Of a stretch of DNA of 64,000 bases, positions 28,729 to 43,310 are shown in pieces. The stretch is from a bacterium. Its GTDB lineage: Bacteria > Sumerlaeota > Sumerlaeia > SLMS01 > JAHLLQ01. The first letter of the stretch is position 1, and every line of letters begins with the position of its first letter. Made by a program: the position numbers and the translations under genes. The DNA lies in NCBI GenBank assembly GCA_020444065.1, contig JAHLLQ010000001.1, forward strand, positions 310,001 to 374,000, read 5' to 3'. The notes under the pieces were generated by a model. That model was not told the origin of the DNA. It searched no databases and saw nothing but the letters and a program-made list of their open reading frames with translations.

Positions 28729-31110
28729 CTACTCCTTCACTTTCAGCACTTCCAGCCAGTTCAAGCGCCGGACAAGACGGAAGATGATAAGCTGTGCGAG
28801 GCTGACGAACAGAATCATCAGCCCAGCACCCTCGAAGAATCGAATCGGCAAGATAACCGTAGGGAAGCGATAGAGTTCGGTGTTATAGGCCATACTCATC
28901 AAGTGAGCCAGGCCGACCCCAGCAAGAAGTCCAAGCGCAATCCCGACACCGTTCAGCGCAAGGCTCTCGCCCGCGAAGATGCGCGCGATCTGATTCGGCA
29001 TATACCCAAGGACGCGGAATGTGCCGATGTCTCGATGGCGTTCGCTGAGGGCAACCAGTGCAGCATTGAAGACGCTCCCGAACGCGATTGCTCCCGAGAA
29101 GAGCACGAGTATCGACAGGATCGCTCCCATGCTGGCTGCGAATGTGGCGTCGATCTGGTGCAGCGCACGCAGGCGACTGGACATACCCACGACTGCTGGA
29201 CGGCGACGCAATTCCCGGACGAGTCCATCCCTTCCATCGCCGTGCTCGGTCTTCAGAAGAAGCGAGTTGGAAACCCACTCTTCGCCAATCAGTCGCGACA
29301 GGTAGCGCATATCGGCGTATGCCCCAAGCCCGAGATACGAATCCACGATCTGCACGACGGGCGCAGTCGTTTCCTGGCGGGTTCCAATCAACGGACGCAA
29401 ACGCACGCGATCGCCGGCCTTCAAATCAAGGATCTCCGCCAATTTCTTTGTCAGTACAAGTCCCGATTCCGGGATCGGCACCGGATTGTCGTGTGCATCC
29501 AACGGCGTATGCAGCCGCGCTCCGGGCAAGATCCCGGTGATGGAAGTGCGCTTGTCCAACGGCCCATTTGAGAGGTCACAGACGATGCCGAGCTCCGGTT
29601 CGGATTGAACGACGCCGGGCAGGGTCTGTGCTTCCTCCAGGACCTCGCGTCCGACGGGATCGCGCAATCCCGCAGTGACATCCTGGTGCATGACCTGCAC
29701 AAACTCACGTGTTACAATGAGGTCGAGTGCATCGACCATCGAGAGCGTGGAGAGAATGAGTGCTGTCGCGATAATCGATGCAAGAATTCCGACAAGACTT
29801 CGGAATGGGTTCCGGAAGAGATCGCGCAGCATCATCTTCGTCTGGAACGGCAAACGCCGCCAGAGCGGCCCAATGCGCTCGATCAGGATCGGCCGCACGC
29901 GTTCGGGCGGTGCAGGGCGCATTGCCTCCGCAGGCGACAATCGAGCCGCGTACCGCACGCCGCGAATGGTCCCCAGAATCGCGAACACGATGCTGATCAA
30001 TACACCGGCGCAGATATTCACGGAGTACACGTGCAGCCGCATGTCGGGCAGATTATAGAAGCCACGATAGATCCCCAGCATTCCCGCTTGGATCAACACG
30101 CCTCCGGCGGCTCCGAGCAAGCCACCCAGCGCTCCGATCGTCAGGCCATAAGCCATGTAGTGCAGAGAGACGCTAGATCGCGAGTATCCGATGGCCCGAA
30201 GCGTCCCGATGATTGAACGCTGCTGCACGACCATCCGCCCCAGCATGACGTTCAAAATCAGCGCCGCCACGCCCAGGAAAATGCTCGGCATGATCGTGGC
30301 CGAGACTTTCAGACCTCTCAATTCATCCGCCAGAAATCGCACGGATGGCTGGTCGATTGCGCGAATCGTGTTCAGCACACCGAATGAATCGAGATGACGA
30401 GAAATGTTGTCCAGTGTATTGTCCAACGCAACGTCGCGCGTATCATGTACCTTGCCGAGAACTTGATTGTAGGCACCTTCCATGTCCGCTGCACGGCGCA
30501 GGAGGGGCTCCGAAAGGTACAGCACGCCGAAGCGCGCGGGATCGGGGGCAATGCCCCCACTGGGCGGAAGCAGGTAAACGAATTCCGGCGACATGGCGGT
30601 CCCGACAATCAGCAGATCGTGTTGCTTGTCGAGGAGCAGAACCTTCAAGCGATCTCCGGGGCGAAGGTTGTTTGCAGAGGCAAACGCATCGTTTAGAATG
30701 ACTTCCTCTGCTTCACGCGACGAGAACCACGTTCCGCGCTTCAGCATCAGATCGTTCAAGACCGGCCTGGGTTCCTCGGGAATAGAAATCGCCGTGCCCG
30801 AGAGGGGTTCCTGCACGCTCGGAAGATCGAGGCGAGCGGCGACGGCCACTCGACCGTACACTTCGCGCACATTCGGCAGGCTTTCGAGGGCTTTCACTGA
30901 CGAGGCCGGTGCGCGCTTCATGTCCACGACGAAGTCGGTCAAACGATACTTGGAGTAATAGCGCGCGCGTGCACCGTCCAAGTCGCGCCAAACCGACGTC
31001 ATGCCGATGAAGACCGCGACGCCGATCGTCGAGATCGCGATCAACGTAATCAAGGCGCCCTTCCGCTGGAAGAGATCGCGCCTGATCTTCTTGCGGAGAA
31101 TTCCGATCAC
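28729..31110 (-). CDS. FtsX/MacB-type ABC transporter permease
   Basis: This 793-residue inner-membrane protein has an N-terminal helix (LITLIAISTIGVAVFIGM), a large periplasmic domain, an FtsX domain with three helices near 275-390, a central helix near 430, another periplasmic region, and a second FtsX domain at about 670-790. The duplicated layout matches the larger FtsX-family permeases rather than single-unit MacB. The GTG start overlaps the TGA of the ATPase gene (GTGA). It would couple ATP hydrolysis to periplasmic substrate extrusion. Confidence 0.9.
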   Translation of the reverse strand: MIGILRKKIRRDLFQRKGALITLIAISTIGVAVFIGMTSVWRDLDGARARYYSKYRLTDFVVDMKRAPASSVKALESLPNVREVYGRVAVAARLDLPSVQEPLSGTAISIPEEPRPVLNDLMLKRGTWFSSREAEEVILNDAFASANNLRPGDRLKVLLLDKQHDLLIVGTAMSPEFVYLLPPSGGIAPDPARFGVLYLSEPLLRRAADMEGAYNQVLGKVHDTRDVALDNTLDNISRHLDSFGVLNTIRAIDQPSVRFLADELRGLKVSATIMPSIFLGVAALILNVMLGRMVVQQRSIIGTLRAIGYSRSSVSLHYMAYGLTIGALGGLLGAAGGVLIQAGMLGIYRGFYNLPDMRLHVYSVNICAGVLISIVFAILGTIRGVRYAARLSPAEAMRPAPPERVRPILIERIGPLWRRLPFQTKMMLRDLFRNPFRSLVGILASIIATALILSTLSMVDALDLIVTREFVQVMHQDVTAGLRDPVGREVLEEAQTLPGVVQSEPELGIVCDLSNGPLDKRTSITGILPGARLHTPLDAHDNPVPIPESGLVLTKKLAEILDLKAGDRVRLRPLIGTRQETTAPVVQIVDSYLGLGAYADMRYLSRLIGEEWVSNSLLLKTEHGDGRDGLVRELRRRPAVVGMSSRLRALHQIDATFAASMGAILSILVLFSGAIAFGSVFNAALVALSERHRDIGTFRVLGYMPNQIARIFAGESLALNGVGIALGLLAGVGLAHLMSMAYNTELYRFPTVILPIRFFEGAGLMILFVSLAQLIIFRLVRRLNWLEVLKVKE

Positions 31111-31808
31111 CAGACGACGTCCTCGGGGGCCGTTGGGTTCTTGTTCTTCTCGATCGAGTAAATCCCGCCGTCGCGCATGTGAGCCACACGATCGGCAATT
31201 CCCGCGATGGCATTGTTGTGCGTAATCAGGACTACCGTCTTACCCATCTCGTTGCGCAGGCGAAGAAGCAGCGTCAGAACCTGGCGACTCGTTTCCAAAT
31301 CAAGGGCACCGGTCGGCTCGTCGCAAAGAAGCAATGGCGGATTGCTCGCCAGTGCGCGGGCGATCGCAACACGCTGCTGCTCGCCACCGCTCATCTGTGA
31401 AGGGAAATGTCCGGCCCGTTCCTTCAAGCCAACGCGCTCAAGCGCCTCGGTCGGATCGATTGGTTCCTGGGCAATCTCTACGGCGACTTCGACATTTTCC
31501 CAGGCCGTCAATGTTGGGACCAGATTGTAGAACTGGAACACGAAACCGATCTGGTTTCGCCGATAGAGCGTCAGATCGCGGTCGACGGCAGTGGTCAGAT
31601 CCTGGTCGCGAAAATGCACAGTCCCAGTGGTCGGGCGGTCCATCCCGCCGATGAGATTGAGGAGGGTGCTTTTGCCTGAGCCGCTCGGACCGACCACGAC
31701 GAGGAATTCGCCCTCCTCGATTTCGATGGAAGCATCCTTCAAGGCATGCACATCCACCTCGCCCATGCGATAGACGCGGCTGGCGTTGCGAACGGATATC
31801 AATGACAT
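31107..31808 (-). CDS. ABC transporter ATP-binding protein (MacB/LolD type)
   Basis: This 233-residue ATPase has Walker A GPSGSGKST, Q-loop FVFQFYNLVPTLTAWENV, signature MSGGEQQRVAIARA, Walker B LLLCDEPTGALD and switch His in VLITHN. I chose ATG 31808 because the conserved N-terminus MSLISVRNASRVY starts there. It is the first gene of the operon with permease and adaptor and is divergent from the SLC13-type transporter. Confidence 0.95.
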   Translation of the reverse strand: MSLISVRNASRVYRMGEVDVHALKDASIEIEEGEFLVVVGPSGSGKSTLLNLIGGMDRPTTGTVHFRDQDLTTAVDRDLTLYRRNQIGFVFQFYNLVPTLTAWENVEVAVEIAQEPIDPTEALERVGLKERAGHFPSQMSGGEQQRVAIARALASNPPLLLCDEPTGALDLETSRQVLTLLLRLRNEMGKTVVLITHNNAIAGIADRVAHMRDGGIYSIEKNKNPTAPEDVVW

Positions 31809-35077: not shown

Positions 35078-35932
35078 ATGGCACACCGCAGTCTCACAGC
35101 CCTGGTTTTCAGCGGATTCACGCCCACGACGTCCGCCACGATCATCTCGATGCTCGGTGACGATGGGCTGCCGGGCGATATTCGGATCGTCCAGGAATTG
35201 ACAGACCAGCCCTGGCGCACCAGCCGCTCGGGCCTGCTCGTGATGAGCATGGACCCGAATACCGACCTGGCAAAGGTGTCTCACTACATCCAGGACCGCA
35301 CGACCTGGTGGGAAGTGGTCGTGTGCCTGACCGAGAGCATCTGGGCATACGAGCCTGCCTTGCTGGCCCAGGGAGCGGTCAAGGTCATCCCCCACCCGGA
35401 GGATGAGCTGAGCCGTTGTCGCGACGAGCTCCGCAACCTGCTCTCAATCCTCTCGATGCACATGACCGACATCCTGGGGCTGGAGCTGGCGGATCTACTG
35501 CAGCTTTACGGCGACAAGCGCGTTCCGAAGACGATCCGAATCTGCGGCGAAGGCGTGATCGGTTCGATTTACATGCGCAATGGGAACATTGTTCATGCCG
35601 AGACGATCGACGAAATTGAAGGCGTGAAAGCCTTCAATCGGCTGTTCGCCGTCAAGGCCCCCGAGATTCGTGTTCACAACGGCTGCCTGACGTCGAAGAA
35701 CACCGTGAATCAGCCGGTCATGTCTGTCATGCTCGAGGGCGCCCGGATTAACGATGAGGTCGAGCGGGATTCCATCGAGTTCATGGGCCAACCGGAGGCG
35801 CCGACTGCTGAAGACGTCAGCCAATCGCTCTCGGAGATTTTCGAAGAACTCGACATCCCCGTTTCGGGCGAAGTCTCAAAGTCGGATGTGGACTCGGACT
35901 TCGACTCGGATCTCGATGAATTGGATTTCTGA
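35078..35932 (+). CDS. Receiver-like plus DUF4388 (PATAN-type) protein
   Basis: This 284-residue cytosolic protein starts with about 125 residues of alternating strand and helix (TALVFSGFTPTTSATIISML, VVVCLTESIWAYEPALLAQGAVKVIPHP) resembling a receiver domain without clear phospho-acceptor context. A DUF4388 domain follows (ADLLQLYGDKRVPKTIRI, GSIYMRNGNIVHAETIDEIEGVKAFNRLF). The acidic tail has Ser-Asp repeats (DVDSDFDSDLDELDF). DUF4388 proteins occur in signalling and motility contexts. The start ATG has a weak ribosome site. Confidence 0.8.
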   Translation: MAHRSLTALVFSGFTPTTSATIISMLGDDGLPGDIRIVQELTDQPWRTSRSGLLVMSMDPNTDLAKVSHYIQDRTTWWEVVVCLTESIWAYEPALLAQGAVKVIPHPEDELSRCRDELRNLLSILSMHMTDILGLELADLLQLYGDKRVPKTIRICGEGVIGSIYMRNGNIVHAETIDEIEGVKAFNRLFAVKAPEIRVHNGCLTSKNTVNQPVMSVMLEGARINDEVERDSIEFMGQPEAPTAEDVSQSLSEIFEELDIPVSGEVSKSDVDSDFDSDLDELDF

Positions 35933-35960
35933 TTTCAACCCCCACCGCCGGAGGCCGACT

Positions 35961-36431
35961 GTGGCGATTCTGAGAACCGCAATCCTGGGAATTCTTGTGC
36001 TTTGGGCAACAGGCTGTGCCTCGATGCCAACCGCAGGAAAGGTCGCGCTGACTCCACTGACCGGAGTCCGCGACATCGTGGATGCGCCATTGATGTCGCT
36101 CACGAACGTCTTTGAGATGTGGGCGGATGCAAGCAACCCCAACCCAACGCCGGGGGCGAACATTGGCTGGACCTGGCGCGGAGGATTCGACGCCGGAATC
36201 GGCCTGAATGTCAGCTACCTGCTGTTCAAAGGCCTGTCCGGCATTTTCGGCGTCGTCGACTACATCCCCTGCCGTTCGCTCTATCCGAATTTCGCCAAGG
36301 GCGTCAGTCCGTGGAAGAAGCCCGACCAGACGTGGGGCAGCATGTACTTCCCGAACTCGAAGGCCCTGTGGGCGGAACCGCCGCCCGAGGATGACCCACC
36401 GCCGCCTCCTCCACAGGCGCGCCAGGATTGA
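35961..36431 (+). CDS. Small lipoprotein, unknown
   Basis: This 156-residue protein starts at GTG with GGAGG six bases upstream. The signal peptide ends in lipobox ATGC with C19. The mature part has VRDIVDAPLMSLTNVFEMW and LLFKGLSGIFGVVDYIPCRSLYP, patterns seen in exosortase-independent envelope lipoproteins of uncultured lineages, and a Pro-rich end. It lies 28 bases after the DUF4388 gene and may be cotranscribed. Confidence 0.8.
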   Translation: MAILRTAILGILVLWATGCASMPTAGKVALTPLTGVRDIVDAPLMSLTNVFEMWADASNPNPTPGANIGWTWRGGFDAGIGLNVSYLLFKGLSGIFGVVDYIPCRSLYPNFAKGVSPWKKPDQTWGSMYFPNSKALWAEPPPEDDPPPPPPQARQD

Positions 36432-36535: not shown

Positions 36536-38215
36536 GTGCTCGCAATCTCAGCCAGCGACAAAGCCTACTTCCGCCGCCTGTGGCAATACTGGCGCGATCG
36601 CCACGATAATCCGATGGTGATGTATGGGGTTATTAGCGGCAGAAGTCTCGGCCATCGTGCGCTGAATATCAAACTGCTCACGATTACATCGGTCCTCGGC
36701 TTCTCCATTCCGCTCGTCTTCCTCCTGTACCGAATCAACATGTCAGTATCCCGACTGCTGGAGCACTTCACGCTTCTGAGTCTCCTTCTCTCACCTGTAG
36801 TATCAATCCTGCCTGCGATCAGTCTGCACACATTCGCGCCCGGGCGTCGCTGCGAACACCTTCTCTCGGAACTCCGTACAACGAACACATCCTCAGGCGA
36901 GTTGGCATTTGGCGCTGTCTGGCTGGGGTTGCGGTCCCACCTGATCGTCATGCTCCCGCTCTTTCTGGGCTATGCAGCGGCAGCGATGATCGTCCTCTCC
37001 AGCGCTCATGATTCCATGCTCGCTCGTTATTATTTCGAGGACCGATGGATGAATACGGAGCGACTGGTCATGCTGGTGCTCGCAACGACCGCCATGTGGA
37101 TCTGGGCGTTGCTGATCGCAATTCGATGCTGGCTGGTATGGAAGGATCGGCTTGTAGAGAGCATCCTGATTCCTCCGATCGTCGCGTTCTGTCGCATGTT
37201 TGTAGGCCTTGCCGTCTTATTCGCGACCTTCAGCGGCCCTGCCGTGTTCCTCCAGGAATTCATGGACTTTCCATCTGAGTCTGCCGAATTGGTTGGCGGA
37301 TTCATAACCATTGTTGTGCTGGTGATCCTGCTGGCTGCCACGATCCGCGACGGATTGCGGGAGGTGGGACGTCACTCCGGCGCCAAATTCCTCTACGCGG
37401 TCGATCAAGTCGAATTGCAGGATCGTTCATGGCTGGAGAACGAAGCCGCAAGTCGACTGGAAAAGGCCGAGAGACGCGCCGCGCTGAAGGAGCAGGGGAA
37501 GCGACTCCACTTGTCGCCCACAATGATTACCGCATCGCTTGGCCTGTCGATGGTCCTGATCGGTCTGCTCGCCATCCTGATGCACAAGGCCGCCTTGCCG
37601 CCCGAGGTCCCGTCGGCGAATGGCCGCAGCTGGTCCTTTGGAGACTACGAACTCCTCGCGATTTTCGCCTTCGCCGTTCAGGCGGTTCTCCCGTCGCTGT
37701 TCTTTGCAATCACGATGGCAGCCGTACACATCAAGGGGCGCTCCATCCCTCTCGTCTCCGGTGCTTTGATCGGAGGCACAAGCAACCTTGCCATGCGCTT
37801 CCTCCTTTGGGCGCAAATCCCCTCGCTGCTTTGCGCGGGAATCACGATCTTCGCTGTTGTGCCAACCTACCAGTGGAGAGTTTTCCTCTTCCTATTCGAG
37901 GGAATTCTGTCTCTTCTCTTTCAAATCCTGTTCCTGCTCCTTACGTCGCTCTGCTGGCTGCGCTGGAGGAGCTCGCTGATCTTTCTGCCTTTTCTCTTAT
38001 CCTTCTCCGCATCATTTCTGTTAGTGATCGAGTTCTTTACGGTGGGCGCAGGCGGGTACTCGGATCGCGAGATCCTCATGCTCGTTTCCGCACCGACATT
38101 GATCGGCCTGCTGGCTCTCTACTTCTCCGTCTTCCGCCTGTGGGATTGGCTTCAAGAAGTACACGATCGGCACCTGCGCGGGGTTCCGCGTCACACCATC
38201 GCGGAGATCGAGTGA
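36536..38215 (+). CDS. Tandem membrane paralogue 1 of 4 (ABC-2-permease-like)
   Basis: This 559-residue polytopic protein starts at GTG after a GGGGGAC ribosome site. The cytosolic N-terminus is FRRLWQYWRDRHDNPMVMYG, followed by roughly 12 hydrophobic helices in two halves. Between the halves is the cytosolic motif LQDRSWLENEAASRLEKAERR, and the end is WDWLQEVHDRHLRGVPRHTIAEIE. The DNPMV..G..R..G start recalls NP-xx-E-RxRxR starts of ABC-2 permeases, but no ATPase gene is adjacent. It is the first of four paralogues in one operon. Function unknown. Confidence 0.8.
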   Translation: MLAISASDKAYFRRLWQYWRDRHDNPMVMYGVISGRSLGHRALNIKLLTITSVLGFSIPLVFLLYRINMSVSRLLEHFTLLSLLLSPVVSILPAISLHTFAPGRRCEHLLSELRTTNTSSGELAFGAVWLGLRSHLIVMLPLFLGYAAAAMIVLSSAHDSMLARYYFEDRWMNTERLVMLVLATTAMWIWALLIAIRCWLVWKDRLVESILIPPIVAFCRMFVGLAVLFATFSGPAVFLQEFMDFPSESAELVGGFITIVVLVILLAATIRDGLREVGRHSGAKFLYAVDQVELQDRSWLENEAASRLEKAERRAALKEQGKRLHLSPTMITASLGLSMVLIGLLAILMHKAALPPEVPSANGRSWSFGDYELLAIFAFAVQAVLPSLFFAITMAAVHIKGRSIPLVSGALIGGTSNLAMRFLLWAQIPSLLCAGITIFAVVPTYQWRVFLFLFEGILSLLFQILFLLLTSLCWLRWRSSLIFLPFLLSFSASFLLVIEFFTVGAGGYSDREILMLVSAPTLIGLLALYFSVFRLWDWLQEVHDRHLRGVPRHTIAEIE

Positions 38216-38310
38216 GTCCCCATGCGCCTTCTCTCCGAAGAAGATGGAGCCTACTTCCGTCGCCTGTGGCAATACTGGCGCGATCGCCACGATAATCCGA
38301 TGGTGATGTA
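38162..38310 (+). repeat. Junction repeat A between membrane paralogues 1 and 2
   Basis: This 149-bp block spans the 3' end of paralogue 1, the 6-base spacer and the 5' end of paralogue 2. It matches 39845-39993 at roughly 95% including silent sites. The 5' part also matches about 60 bases at 36561-36624. Confidence 0.85.
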
Positions 38311-39898
38311 CGCGAAACTCCGCGGCCGTCGTCTTGGACATCACATCCTGAACATCAAGATGCTGAGCATCACCTCGGCGATCGGCTTGTGCCTTCCGTT
38401 CGCAGCATCGATAACACTGTGGCGAAAAGGTTCCTATGATTATCTCCAGTGGTTTGCGCTGCTGAGTATGGCCGTACTTGCGTTCAGTCTGCTCGTGCCG
38501 ATTCTCATATTGCGCGTCTTCTCACCCGGTCGAAATGAGAAGGCCCTTTTGTCCGAGTTGTACCTGACACGAACCTCTGCGGACGAGATTGCCTTCGGTG
38601 CCCTCTGGTACGGGCTGCGCGCGTACGTGTTGCTTCTCATCCCGATTCTGCTGGGATACCTGATCGTCGCCATCCTTGCTTTTTCCCATCTCAGTGCAAA
38701 CAGGGGGAATCCCTACTATGTCTGGATGATGTGGAGACATGGAACGCGCGTATTGCTGTGGACCATCGGAATACTAGTAGGATGCACTTGGGGGTTGTTG
38801 AACGCGGCCAGGTGCTGGCTTGGATGGACGCAGTCCTGGTGGAAAGCCCTTCTCATCTCGACTGTGGTGACAGTCATATGGATATCCGTTGGGTGGCTGC
38901 TTGGAATCATCGTTCTCTCCGCCACGACAACCACGTTCCGGGTTGCTTACGACGTCACAGATGTAGTCCAGGTTGCCGTTCCAATGCTCATTGTTACCGG
39001 CGTCCTGATGATCCTTTCTCTTGTCATGGCCTGCCGCATGATTCGCAGCGCCGGGAGAAACGCGGGCGCGAAATTCTTCCGAGGGGTCAGTGAGGAGAAC
39101 CTCCAGGACGCCTCCTGGTTCGCGAATGAAGCCGCCGGACGCCTCGAACCGCTCAAACGGCGCACAGCCAGCAGAGAACTCCAACGCCGACTCCACATCA
39201 CGTTTGGCTCTGAAACGATTGCAGTGATTCTCTCTGCCGTTCTGATCCTGCTCTGCACCTGGGTGATTCGAAAGGGGCTTCTCATCCCTGCTCTGCTCGT
39301 GAATAAGGAATCATTCGTGCTCCTGGAGGCATCGGATCGCCAGATCCTCAACGGTGCGCAAACAGTCTGGGCGCCGGTCGCTTTGCTGCTTCTTCTGGAA
39401 TGGAGAAGATGCCGGAAGCAGCCTATCGCCATCATCGCCGGTGGACTTCTCCAGACCATCCTTCGCCTTGCTCTTCCAATCATGCCGCCTATCGCTATCT
39501 TGATCGCGATTGGATCCTACTTCTCGATGGAAGAACCCGCCGCGGGCATGGCAACGCACTTCTACATCCTCTGGGGTGCAGGCGCTATCGGCTTCCTCGG
39601 ACTTCAGCTCGTTCTCACCTGCAGTGCGGCGGTATTCTGGCTGCGCTTCCATCAAAGCCGTTGGTTTCTCCCCTACGCCATCCTACTCACACTCGTGACT
39701 CTGGCAATGACGCAAGCCGACGTCCAGATGGCCTACCCACGGCTGCTGCCGTGGCCGAATATCCTCTTCTCGGCACTGCCACTGGCCGGTTTCTGGATCT
39801 ACTACCTCTCTGTTTTCCGCCTCTGGGATTCCCTGCAGGACATCCACGACCGGCACCTGCGCGGGGTTCCGCGTCACACCATCGTGGAGATCGAGTGA
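38222..39898 (+). CDS. Tandem membrane paralogue 2 of 4 (ABC-2-permease-like)
   Basis: This 558-residue polytopic protein lies 6 bases after paralogue 1. It shares the N-terminal FRRLWQYWRDRHDNPMVMY, AFGALWYGLRAYVLLLIP, the mid-loop LQDASWFANEAAGRLEPLKRR and the end HDRHLRGVPRHTIVEIE. Its membrane helices are diverged from those of copy 1. The start codon region is almost identical in DNA to that of copy 3. No ATP-binding or catalytic motif is visible. Confidence 0.8.
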   Translation: MRLLSEEDGAYFRRLWQYWRDRHDNPMVMYAKLRGRRLGHHILNIKMLSITSAIGLCLPFAASITLWRKGSYDYLQWFALLSMAVLAFSLLVPILILRVFSPGRNEKALLSELYLTRTSADEIAFGALWYGLRAYVLLLIPILLGYLIVAILAFSHLSANRGNPYYVWMMWRHGTRVLLWTIGILVGCTWGLLNAARCWLGWTQSWWKALLISTVVTVIWISVGWLLGIIVLSATTTTFRVAYDVTDVVQVAVPMLIVTGVLMILSLVMACRMIRSAGRNAGAKFFRGVSEENLQDASWFANEAAGRLEPLKRRTASRELQRRLHITFGSETIAVILSAVLILLCTWVIRKGLLIPALLVNKESFVLLEASDRQILNGAQTVWAPVALLLLLEWRRCRKQPIAIIAGGLLQTILRLALPIMPPIAILIAIGSYFSMEEPAAGMATHFYILWGAGAIGFLGLQLVLTCSAAVFWLRFHQSRWFLPYAILLTLVTLAMTQADVQMAYPRLLPWPNILFSALPLAGFWIYYLSVFRLWDSLQDIHDRHLRGVPRHTIVEIE

Positions 39899-39993
39899 GT
39901 CCCCATGCGCCTTCTCTCCGAAGAAGATGGAGCCTGCTTTCGCCGCCTGTGGCAATACTGGCGCAATCGCCGCGATAATCCGATGGTGATGTA
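39845..39993 (+). repeat. Junction repeat B between membrane paralogues 2 and 3
   Basis: This is the 149-bp partner of 38162-38310, same length, with only about seven or eight differences across coding and spacer bases. Confidence 0.85.
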
Positions 39994-41572
39994 TGGTCAG
40001 ATACGTGGGCGACGGGTCGGGCTTCGCGTGATTGGGATCGTGCTGGTCCTTCTTTCGATCGTGCTTGGCTTCTTGTATCCGCTGGGCAGATTAGCCTATG
40101 ATGCGATAACATTCGAACCGACGATGTGGTTGCCGTCGCCAGTTCTTCTGGTCAACGCCGCCGAATCGAAAGCCGTCCTCTTCCTGCTCCTTGCGGGCCT
40201 ATTCTTGCCACCCCTTTGTCTCTCCCTCTACGGCATCAACATAAGTCGGGAAGATGGTTTGGCCGAATTGGACCTTTCCGCATTTTCCCGGGAGGAACTT
40301 GCATTCGGCGCGATCGTGCCAGCCGTCGAGAGACTGATTGTGCTGGTCTTTCCAGCATTCCTAACCATCGCATCTTGCGCTGTTCTGAGGCCTGCCTTTG
40401 GTCTAAAGGACAGCATTGCATCGCCCCTGGTCGCGGCCGTTCTTTCCTTGATCATCTCTGGGAGTGCAGGGGCAGTTTGTTCGATTTGGGCCCTATGTAT
40501 TGCTGTCAGAATCTGGCCTACAAATCGTGATCGCTCCTGGGTGACTTTCCTGACAACATCTGCGATAATGTTAGCCTGGGTCTCCCTCCTGCTCTTCTTG
40601 AACATTGCGTGCTCCGTGATGATAAGGGCCCTGCTCCCCCGCGATCCGAGCAGCCTATTCTTCCAGCCATTTATTCCTGCGATTATTGGGATAGTCCTCC
40701 CCGCGATCGCCATTACGCCGCGCGTAGTTTGTGGAGCGTGCCGCAATGCGGGCAGCAAGTACTTCCGTCAAGTAGATCCGGAGGGACTACAGGATCGATC
40801 CTGGATCGCCAACGAGATCGCCGGCCGCCGAGAGCGCAAGCAGCGTCGCGTGGACTTAGCGAAGATCCTCCAGCCTGCACGTCCTTCTCCAATCAGAACA
40901 CTCATCCTCACGATGCTAGTCCTCGCAGTACTGGCAGGATTCCAGGTTTTTGTCATGCGCCTCTACCATCCATACGCGTTTGGCCAGCCCAAACCTCATT
41001 GGTTCGCATGCCTCGCGCTTGCGCCGATGATGGCATTTCTGGCTTCCGCTCTTAGCAACAAACTGAGAGGTCAACAGTCTGTACTGCTCGTTGGCGGCCT
41101 GATTCCGTCGATTTCCCATCGGGCCGAACGCTACTGGCTCTATGCGGCTTTCCCAACAGCTTGCTGGATTGCATTCTGGTACGGCGTTCCTGCGTGGCAT
41201 GAACCGCGGATGATCATTCGTATCGTGTTCTGTTCGCTTGCTATCCTGGCCGCCCAGGCGCTCCTGCTCTTCCTCGCCGCCGTTGTGTGGCATCGCAATG
41301 GTCTGAATATCCAATCCGTCGCAATCTGGTTCGGAGTTCTCCTGGCGGGACTTGGACCCTCCGCATCTGATCCTCTCCTGGGAATGCCGTTATTCTCCTC
41401 CTCGACAGGTAGCCACGGATGGCTGATCTCCTTCCTGATCGAGTTGCCGACTTCGATCCTGATGGCCTGGGTATACTACCTCTTCGTCTTCCGCCTGTGG
41501 GATTGGCTGCAGGACATCCATGATCTCCATTTGCGCGGCAGACCGAGGCATGAAATTGTGACGCTCGATTGA
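39905..41572 (+). CDS. Tandem membrane paralogue 3 of 4 (ABC-2-permease-like)
   Basis: This 555-residue polytopic protein lies 6 bases after paralogue 2. Family landmarks are FRRLWQYWRNRRDNPMVMYG, AFGAIVPAVERLIVLVFP, LQDRSWIANEIAGRRERKQRR and WDWLQDIHDLHLRGRPRHEIVTLD. The N-terminal residues MRLLSEEDGACF are the same as in copy 2 apart from one residue. The rest has diverged, with about 12 predicted helices. No partner ATPase nearby. Confidence 0.8.
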   Translation: MRLLSEEDGACFRRLWQYWRNRRDNPMVMYGQIRGRRVGLRVIGIVLVLLSIVLGFLYPLGRLAYDAITFEPTMWLPSPVLLVNAAESKAVLFLLLAGLFLPPLCLSLYGINISREDGLAELDLSAFSREELAFGAIVPAVERLIVLVFPAFLTIASCAVLRPAFGLKDSIASPLVAAVLSLIISGSAGAVCSIWALCIAVRIWPTNRDRSWVTFLTTSAIMLAWVSLLLFLNIACSVMIRALLPRDPSSLFFQPFIPAIIGIVLPAIAITPRVVCGACRNAGSKYFRQVDPEGLQDRSWIANEIAGRRERKQRRVDLAKILQPARPSPIRTLILTMLVLAVLAGFQVFVMRLYHPYAFGQPKPHWFACLALAPMMAFLASALSNKLRGQQSVLLVGGLIPSISHRAERYWLYAAFPTACWIAFWYGVPAWHEPRMIIRIVFCSLAILAAQALLLFLAAVVWHRNGLNIQSVAIWFGVLLAGLGPSASDPLLGMPLFSSSTGSHGWLISFLIELPTSILMAWVYYLFVFRLWDWLQDIHDLHLRGRPRHEIVTLD

Positions 41573-41585
41573 ACGTCCCCGAGGG

Positions 41586-43310
41586 GTGATCCCAGTGTTC
41601 GTACCGAATGCGGAAGATAGGGCCTACCTGCGGCGCCTGCATGGGTACTGGCGCGACCGGCATGACAATCCGCTGGTCATCTATGGGCGCGCGCGCAGCC
41701 GCAGTCTTGGATCGCGAACGCTCTTCTTCCTTCTCTTCTGCGCAACGGCATTGGGCGGCCTGATCCTCCCTTGGGGCGGCTGGCTTCTGGCGATGATTTT
41801 CAGCACCGGCAGCAGCTACTCGCAGCTCTGGAACACGCTGATGCCACTTGCGGTCTACATGTTCTTCGGGGTCATGGGGTCGTCGCTGGTCGTGCCATAC
41901 TTGAGCCTCGTTCTGTTCGCGCACGGCTGTCGGGACGCGGATCAACTGACCGATCTGGCCGTCACGTCGATGTCGCGGGATGAAATCGCATTCGGCGCCG
42001 TGTGGAATGGGACAAAGGCCTTCATCATCCTGATGATTCCGCCGTTGATCGGCCTGACGCTCTCGGCCGCCTCGATTCCGATCGCGTACATCGTCGAGGA
42101 AGGTCTCGACAATGATGCCGAGATCCTGCTGGCGATTATCCCGGTCGTTTTGATGTTCTACATTGCGGCGACTGTAACTTGCGCCTGGACGTTTCTGGCG
42201 GTCGTTCGCTGCTGGCTCTGCTGGCGCAAGAAACTTGTCCGGCTCTTCTTCCTGCCTCCCATGATCGCTTCCTTGTGGCTTGGCATCCCATGGATGGTTG
42301 GGTTTGCTTGCATCCTGGGACCGGCCTTCTTCCTGTTGGAAGTTGTCAATGCCGCCAATCGCCATGAGGAGTACGTGTTCATCGGCACTCTGAACTTCGC
42401 CCTGCTCGTGGAAATCGTTCTGGTGGCCTTGCTCTCGATCCGGATACTGCGAGGGGCAGGGTTTCTGGCCGGCGAAAAATACTTCCGATCCCTCGAGCCC
42501 GTCGAGTTGCAAGAGAAGTCCTGGCTGGCGAACGAAGCGGCCTGTCGAGTTGAAGCGGGTCTGCGACGTGCGGCTAACAAGGAACTCCACGCCCGCACCG
42601 GCCGCTCTTACTTCCCGTTCTTCTCTTCCCTGCTGGGAACGGGCGGGTTCCTGCTACTGATTGCACTCGCGCAGACACAACTCTTTGAGCATTTCCGAGA
42701 TGGCGAGTTCCTGGTCATCTTCATCACCAATCTGACAATCTGGCCCGCCATGGCGTTGGCCGTATATGGATTCACGCAGGCGAGACAGGATCGATTGGCT
42801 GCCATTGCCGGCGGCCTGATCCCTACGATTCGTCGATTCGCGCTCCCATTCCTCCTATACTCGCTCATTCCCACGACGCTCATTATCGGTTTCTCACTGG
42901 CTCGCAGTATCTTCAACATCGAAGAGTTCATCGTTGTCACGCTGGCCACTCTCTTAGGAACGATCTCCAGTCAGGCGGTACTGCTCATTATCTGCGCCGC
43001 GGTTTTGCTCCGGTATCGAGGTGCCCTTTGGGTTGCAATCCTGTGGTGGTGCCTCTCGCTCATTTTCGTTCTCTCCCTCTCCATGCTTGTTCATGGCGAC
43101 TCCAGCAATTCAGATGGGCTACTGTTCTGGGCGTGGGTGTTGTTGTTCATTCCGGGAGTCACGCTGAACAGCATCATCGGCTTTCGTTTCTGGAATTGGA
43201 TGCAAGCAATCCACGATCGCCACTTGCGCGACCATCCAAAACATGCGGTTTTGTCTATTCTCAGGGAAGACTCAGTCGAGAGCGTTCTCGAATTCGACGG
43301 CGACGCCTAA
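41586..43310 (+). CDS. Tandem membrane paralogue 4 of 4 (ABC-2-permease-like)
   Basis: This 574-residue protein is the most divergent of the array. It lies 13 bases after paralogue 3. Landmarks are YLRRLHGYWRDRHDNPLVIYG, AFGAVWNGTKAFIILMIPP, LQEKSWLANEAACRVEAGLRR and WNWMQAIHDRHLRDHPKHAVL, with an extra acidic tail of about 20 residues (SVESVLEFDGDA). Its DNA at the ends does not share the junction repeats, so it has escaped homogenisation. The last bases overlap the 3' end of the convergent TatD gene. Confidence 0.8.
   Translation: MIPVFVPNAEDRAYLRRLHGYWRDRHDNPLVIYGRARSRSLGSRTLFFLLFCATALGGLILPWGGWLLAMIFSTGSSYSQLWNTLMPLAVYMFFGVMGSSLVVPYLSLVLFAHGCRDADQLTDLAVTSMSRDEIAFGAVWNGTKAFIILMIPPLIGLTLSAASIPIAYIVEEGLDNDAEILLAIIPVVLMFYIAATVTCAWTFLAVVRCWLCWRKKLVRLFFLPPMIASLWLGIPWMVGFACILGPAFFLLEVVNAANRHEEYVFIGTLNFALLVEIVLVALLSIRILRGAGFLAGEKYFRSLEPVELQEKSWLANEAACRVEAGLRRAANKELHARTGRSYFPFFSSLLGTGGFLLLIALAQTQLFEHFRDGEFLVIFITNLTIWPAMALAVYGFTQARQDRLAAIAGGLIPTIRRFALPFLLYSLIPTTLIIGFSLARSIFNIEEFIVVTLATLLGTISSQAVLLIICAAVLLRYRGALWVAILWWCLSLIFVLSLSMLVHGDSSNSDGLLFWAWVLLFIPGVTLNSIIGFRFWNWMQAIHDRHLRDHPKHAVLSILREDSVESVLEFDGDA

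Follow-up and report, generated by a model that had tools for sequence, protein, structure and literature searches.

The window, the 64,000-nt stretch of Candidatus Sumerlaeota DNA (genome G000) that we analysed, carries a tandem array of four genes for large polytopic membrane proteins that belong to a family new in sequence, although the general kind is already known. The proteins combine conserved boxes, predicted to be cytosolic, with strongly diverged helices. Our tentative explanation for the whole, to which we give somewhat less than an even chance, is that they are full-length ABC-2-like permeases, highly diverged and perhaps powered in trans by a shared ATPase.

Architecture of the four-gene array

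A preliminary description of this DNA had proposed an operon of tandem paralogs, and the array is indeed made up of four adjacent ORFs of 555-574 residues on one strand (36536-43310), separated by 6, 6 and 13 nt and 28-35% identical to one another in pairwise comparison:

36536..38215, + strand: copy 1, complete ORF, GTG start, 559 aa, about 12 TM
38222..39898, + strand: copy 2, complete ORF, ATG start, 558 aa, used for the AF2 model
39905..41572, + strand: copy 3, complete ORF, ATG start, 555 aa
41586..43310, + strand: copy 4, complete ORF, GTG start, 574 aa

Over their full length, copies 2, 3 and 4 are 35, 30 and 32% identical to copy 1. A protein search of the same genome with copy 2 returned the family copies at E values of 3e-83 to 1e-44 and no fifth copy, the sole extra being a stray 44-residue match. 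Upstream on the same strand (35078-36431) lie a DUF4388 gene and a gene for a small lipoprotein-like product, the latter ending 104 nt 5' of copy 1; neither was found beside family members in relatives.

All four copies contain the three boxes described earlier, an N-terminal YWR[DN]R[HR]DNP[ML]V[MI]Y, a central LQ[DE]xSW[LFI]xNE[AI]A and a C-terminal HD[RL]HLR[GD]xP[RK]H, and a fourth box missing from that list, SxxE[LI]AFGA, lies between TM2 and TM3. In copy 1 they are placed as follows:

36569..36646, + strand: N-terminal cytosolic "elbow" box, FRRLWQYWRDRHDNPMVMYG...
36851..36919, + strand: TM2-TM3 coupling-type box, LLSELRTTNTSSGELAFGA, in register with EKEKKTFDFLRVTTIT...G of ABC-2 when aligned
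37379..37480, + strand: central cytosolic box, LQDRSWLENEAA...
38132..38194, + strand: C-terminal cytosolic box, FRLWDWLQEVHDRHLRGVPRH

The elbow box starts near 38255, 39938 and 41628 in copies 2-4, and its NP is invariant in 17/17 aligned members. The predicted topology has 12 TM, with both termini and every box in the cytosol, and positive charges sit on the would-be inside loops throughout, in keeping with that prediction. An AF2 model of copy 2 built from nine sequences (pLDDT 69.7, pTM 0.48) begins with short helices, TM1-2, a short coupling-box helix and TM3-6, and continues with helices in the cytosol and TM7-12; another prediction, guided by a relative, was worse (pLDDT 58.9) and was discarded. 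The first half is predicted to be a six-TM unit with a cytosolic elbow and, linking TM2 to TM3, a coupling segment, and predicted secondary structure together with the positive-inside loops gives the ABC-2 order of elements. Half-size, six-TM family members exist (L031 and L035), which would follow from a first half that forms a unit; a comparison between the two halves gave no clear sequence signal of duplication. The MacB/FtsX-type hallmark, four TM per subunit and a large periplasmic domain, is absent, the family proteins instead having about 12 TM and short loops on the outside.

The preliminary description had also set conserved cytosolic boxes against diverged helices, which agrees with an identity of 51% in the boxes, all predicted to lie inside, versus 22% in the helices of the window copies. 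Within each of four arrays, identity is 44-58% in the cytosolic boxes and 22-25% in the helices; because the difference is found within all four, the contrast is real and recurrent.

Probable relationship to ABC-2 permeases

A clear match to a characterised family had been named at the outset as an outcome that would refute the preliminary description, and Pfam, NCBIfam and PADLOC HMMs gave none. Curated ABC-2 Pfam models matched 0/17 members, and a search for sequence relatives in the PDB returned chance matches only. The same genome encodes a single-copy ABC-2 permease, L087 (G000:C11:35499-37025), that begins with a DNPILTRELRRRMRG box followed by EKEKKTFDFLRVTTITPWMYIMG and that, with its orthologs (the A5 family), matches ABC-2 Pfam models. 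Profile-profile comparison of our family with A5 gave an E value of 0.0018, in register across the elbow (NP) and coupling boxes, and 0.0008 when just the first halves were aligned; with hhalign, the probability was just 15-24% and the alignment covered the first ~150 residues only. The second half of the family proteins showed no similarity.

A control set the family profile against 142 multi-TM proteins of the fetched loci, each in forward and reversed form (284 comparisons). The best 10/284 were all A5-type ABC-2 permeases, eight of them aligned from the NP box through to the coupling box and two at the coupling box alone, and the genome's other ABC-2 permeases did not reach high ranks. The A5 hits are mutually dependent, so they amount to a single hit at the level of the family, placed above roughly a hundred other proteins. 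Foldseek with the copy 2 model gave non-significant matches, those of highest probability including ABCG5/G8 (0.77) and NosY (0.60), at E values of 0.3 or more and TM-scores ≤0.40, and no PDB fold match had an E value below 0.19. The profile data lean towards the ABC-2-like look noted earlier: the E value is about 0.001 and A5 heads the control ranking, yet the probability is low and the similarity is confined to the N-terminal 150 residues.

These data suggest ABC-2 membership, short of proof. The absence of a family match, an hhalign probability below 25%, a second half without similarity and the lack of a significant fold match would suit a polytopic family peculiar to this lineage and not related to ABC-2, its NP and E-L-T-S-G boxes alike by chance or convergence. 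We think this improbable, since a single ABC-2 type takes all ten top ranks of the control, mostly in the same register, and half-size six-TM members occur. ABC-2 origin is the better-supported reading, and we regard homology of the family to ABC-2 permeases as probable, if weakly supported.

Linked and unlinked ATPases

At ~20 family loci, no dedicated ABC ATPase adjoins any copy, single or tandem. Three ABC ATPases occur within about 10 kb of these loci (the MacB-type ATPase of the window, which has its own permease, one in L033, and an RND-ABC fusion in L034), none of them conserved across family loci, and relatives have no conserved neighbour gene except through shared synteny between close relatives. 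Single copies in relatives, where a neighbouring ABC ATPase would have spoken against the preliminary description, have no ATPase of their own there.

A survey of the same genome, run stretch by stretch, gave 54 ABC ATPase matches, and the search for a distant, co-occurring ATPase proposed in the preliminary description led to L148 (G000:C2:427385-428311), a lone DrrA/GldA-class ATPase for which DrrA and GldA are the top-scoring models, albeit below their cut-offs. Orthologs of L148 (64-68% identity) adjoin an L087-type permease in other families (G013, G014, G019, G021 and G022); in the order to which our genome belongs, the L087-type permease and the L148-type ATPase are on different contigs. 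Since an ABC-2 permease can be unlinked from its ATPase in this lineage, the absence of a neighbouring ATPase is no argument against ABC-2. The earlier statement that the four proteins are "without a partner" accordingly holds for a linked ATPase but may otherwise mean only that the partner is unlinked, as is that of the A5 permease itself in this order. L087 or L148 is present in 12/12 carriers of the family, and G005 and G006, of the same order, lack the family, L087 and L148. This co-occurrence is suggestive only: the Fisher value of 5e-6, which concerns the ATPase, is inflated by shared ancestry because 10/12 carriers belong to two taxonomic families. G019 speaks against the explanation that we favour, since it has a family member although ATPase and A5 permease remain neighbours there.

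Two other candidates were set aside. An orphan DrrA/GldA-class ATPase, G000:C1:1227576-1228529 (L152:2574-3530, - strand), which adjoins a site-2-protease-like gene and has no permease beside it, is found in 36/39 genomes and is thus unspecific; in G007 and G008, the ATPases that immediately precede the A5 permease looked like partners at first but are nearest to another ATPase of our genome (L117, 61-67%). Directly upstream of the L148 ATPase, on the same strand, lies a gene for a weakly PilZ-like protein (L148:1936-2748; E 5e-4, below the cut-off).

In the explanation that we tentatively favour, each protein would consist of two predicted six-TM halves, the first with the cytosolic elbow box, TM1-2, the coupling box and TM3-6, and the second with the central cytosolic box, TM7-8, a second coupling-type loop and TM9-12. 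The ancestor was most likely common with the "DNPILTRELRRRMRG"-type ABC-2 export permease (L087). The conserved cytosolic boxes probably make up a shared docking face where an ATPase encoded elsewhere would bind, the unlinked L148 being the best candidate motor; diverging helices would alter what is handled, copy number would shift through tandem duplication and loss, and gene conversion would keep the array ends alike. Energisation in trans by L148 itself is a possibility that we hold as doubtful, and a change of substrate among the copies is rather unlikely; the hetero-oligomers and substrate diversification suggested in the preliminary description are guesses. More speculative is the combined picture of a modular export set in which amplified ABC-2-like permeases plug into one shared, unlinked ATPase via homogenised cytosolic ends while their cores diversify fast by tandem duplication; we judge it unlikely.

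The same proteins could be ABC-2-derived and have lost their ATPase for good, serving without ATP as membrane scaffolds or channels, or within some other complex that binds the boxes. No ATPase is linked at about 20 loci, the helices diverge very fast and conserved boxes could bind any partner; yet the boxes, the coupling-type one included, remain conserved and in ABC-2 register, and the nearest true ABC-2 permease is unlinked here too while its ATPase persists, leaving permanent loss an improbable account.

The earlier statement that no ATPase lies nearby stands for a dedicated partner and fails for an unrelated system upstream:

31107-31802, opposite strand to the array: MacB/LolD-type ATPase, 4.7 kb upstream of the array
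28729-31110, opposite strand to the array: FtsX-like permease, partner of the MacB/LolD-type ATPase

It is highly improbable that the four proteins are permease subunits of this system, for all that the distance is just 4.7 kb, given an ATPase that is on the opposite strand, is already paired with the FtsX-like permease and has no conserved counterpart near family members in relatives.

Other ABC genes were seen along the way. Two adjacent PF12679 ABC-2 permeases (G000:C9:137647-139094; L085, L086) have no ATPase that we found beside them. Single ORFs of about 1500 residues in two Sumerlaeota families (L116:7100-11644, - strand, at about 147100-151644 of G000:C2; L034:10787-15232, + strand) are RND-ABC fusions, in which a full AcrB-type RND pump (ACR_tran, E 4e-181 or better) precedes an ABC ATPase domain (E about 1e-26).

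Array evolution, distribution and known systems

In a tree of 18 members, the copies of each multi-copy genome cluster together (support 100/98 for the window, 100/98 for G008, 100/99 for G007 and 96/96 for G003); the G003 clade encloses one G001 gene, and a G004 gene falls just outside. The arrays of four genomes are separate clades and arose or were homogenised separately; branches are long, so the tree speaks to separate origin or homogenisation and gives no timing. One syntenic site holds four copies in G003 and one in G001. At the DNA level, the gene junctions of the window are alike:

38119..38342, + strand: DNA repeat spanning the junction of copies 1 and 2, which shares 85% identity with 39802-40025 over 224 nt
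39802..40025, + strand: DNA repeat at the copy 2/copy 3 junction, pairing with 38119-38342

Where copies 1 and 2 have the same amino acid, they share the codon at 38/54 positions at the ends versus 48/127 mid-gene (p 8e-5), and similar sharing is seen at the C-terminal end of G003 copies 3-4 and G008 copies 1-2; these pairs were chosen after inspection, and other pairs show a weaker effect or none. Such likeness suggests, as its simple reading, that the junctions underwent gene conversion or unequal exchange; alternatively, the alike ends might reflect constraint on the RNA.

The named relatives in the collection are Candidatus Sumerlaeia/Sumerlaeota MAGs. The family is present in 12/39 genomes of the class: 5/5 of the host's own family, 5/7 of the order's other family and two weaker cases elsewhere. 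It was found in 0/22 genomes outside the class. Within the reach of the tools, the family is lineage-restricted; the genome-contig scans depended on short patterns, which distant members could escape, and an initial scan with the four paralogs alone gave no matches.

If one ATPase is shared, an ABC exporter can diversify by copying its membrane part alone, which would explain "orphan" permease arrays and would caution against judging ABC systems from gene neighbourhood alone. The several separate arrays offer a natural set for mapping the cytosolic residues that such a shared motor would need.

Of known systems, "DNPILTRELR"-type ABC-2 permeases (A5; Pfam PF12679/PF12698/PF01061) have in common with our family an N-terminal cytosolic DNP box, TM1-2, an E...T...L..T.....G coupling-type box before TM3, a length of about 510-570 residues and many TM helices. 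Our family differs in matching no ABC-2 model, in its diverged second half, in having VxY where A5 has the RELR tail, and in being tandemly amplified without a linked ATPase. In GldA/DrrA-powered ABC-2 exporters, permeases are normally encoded close to the ATPase; the candidate L148 is of the same class as those ATPases, and the permeases differ. Mce transporters resemble the arrangement proposed here, in that several permeases are encoded apart from one shared, unlinked ATPase, MceG, for which a common cytosolic loop of the permeases has been proposed as the binding site (PMC9947336). The Mce permeases themselves, of YrbE type, belong to another family, and the sharing of a distant ATPase, which has been shown for Mce, is one that we only infer for the Sumerlaeota arrays.
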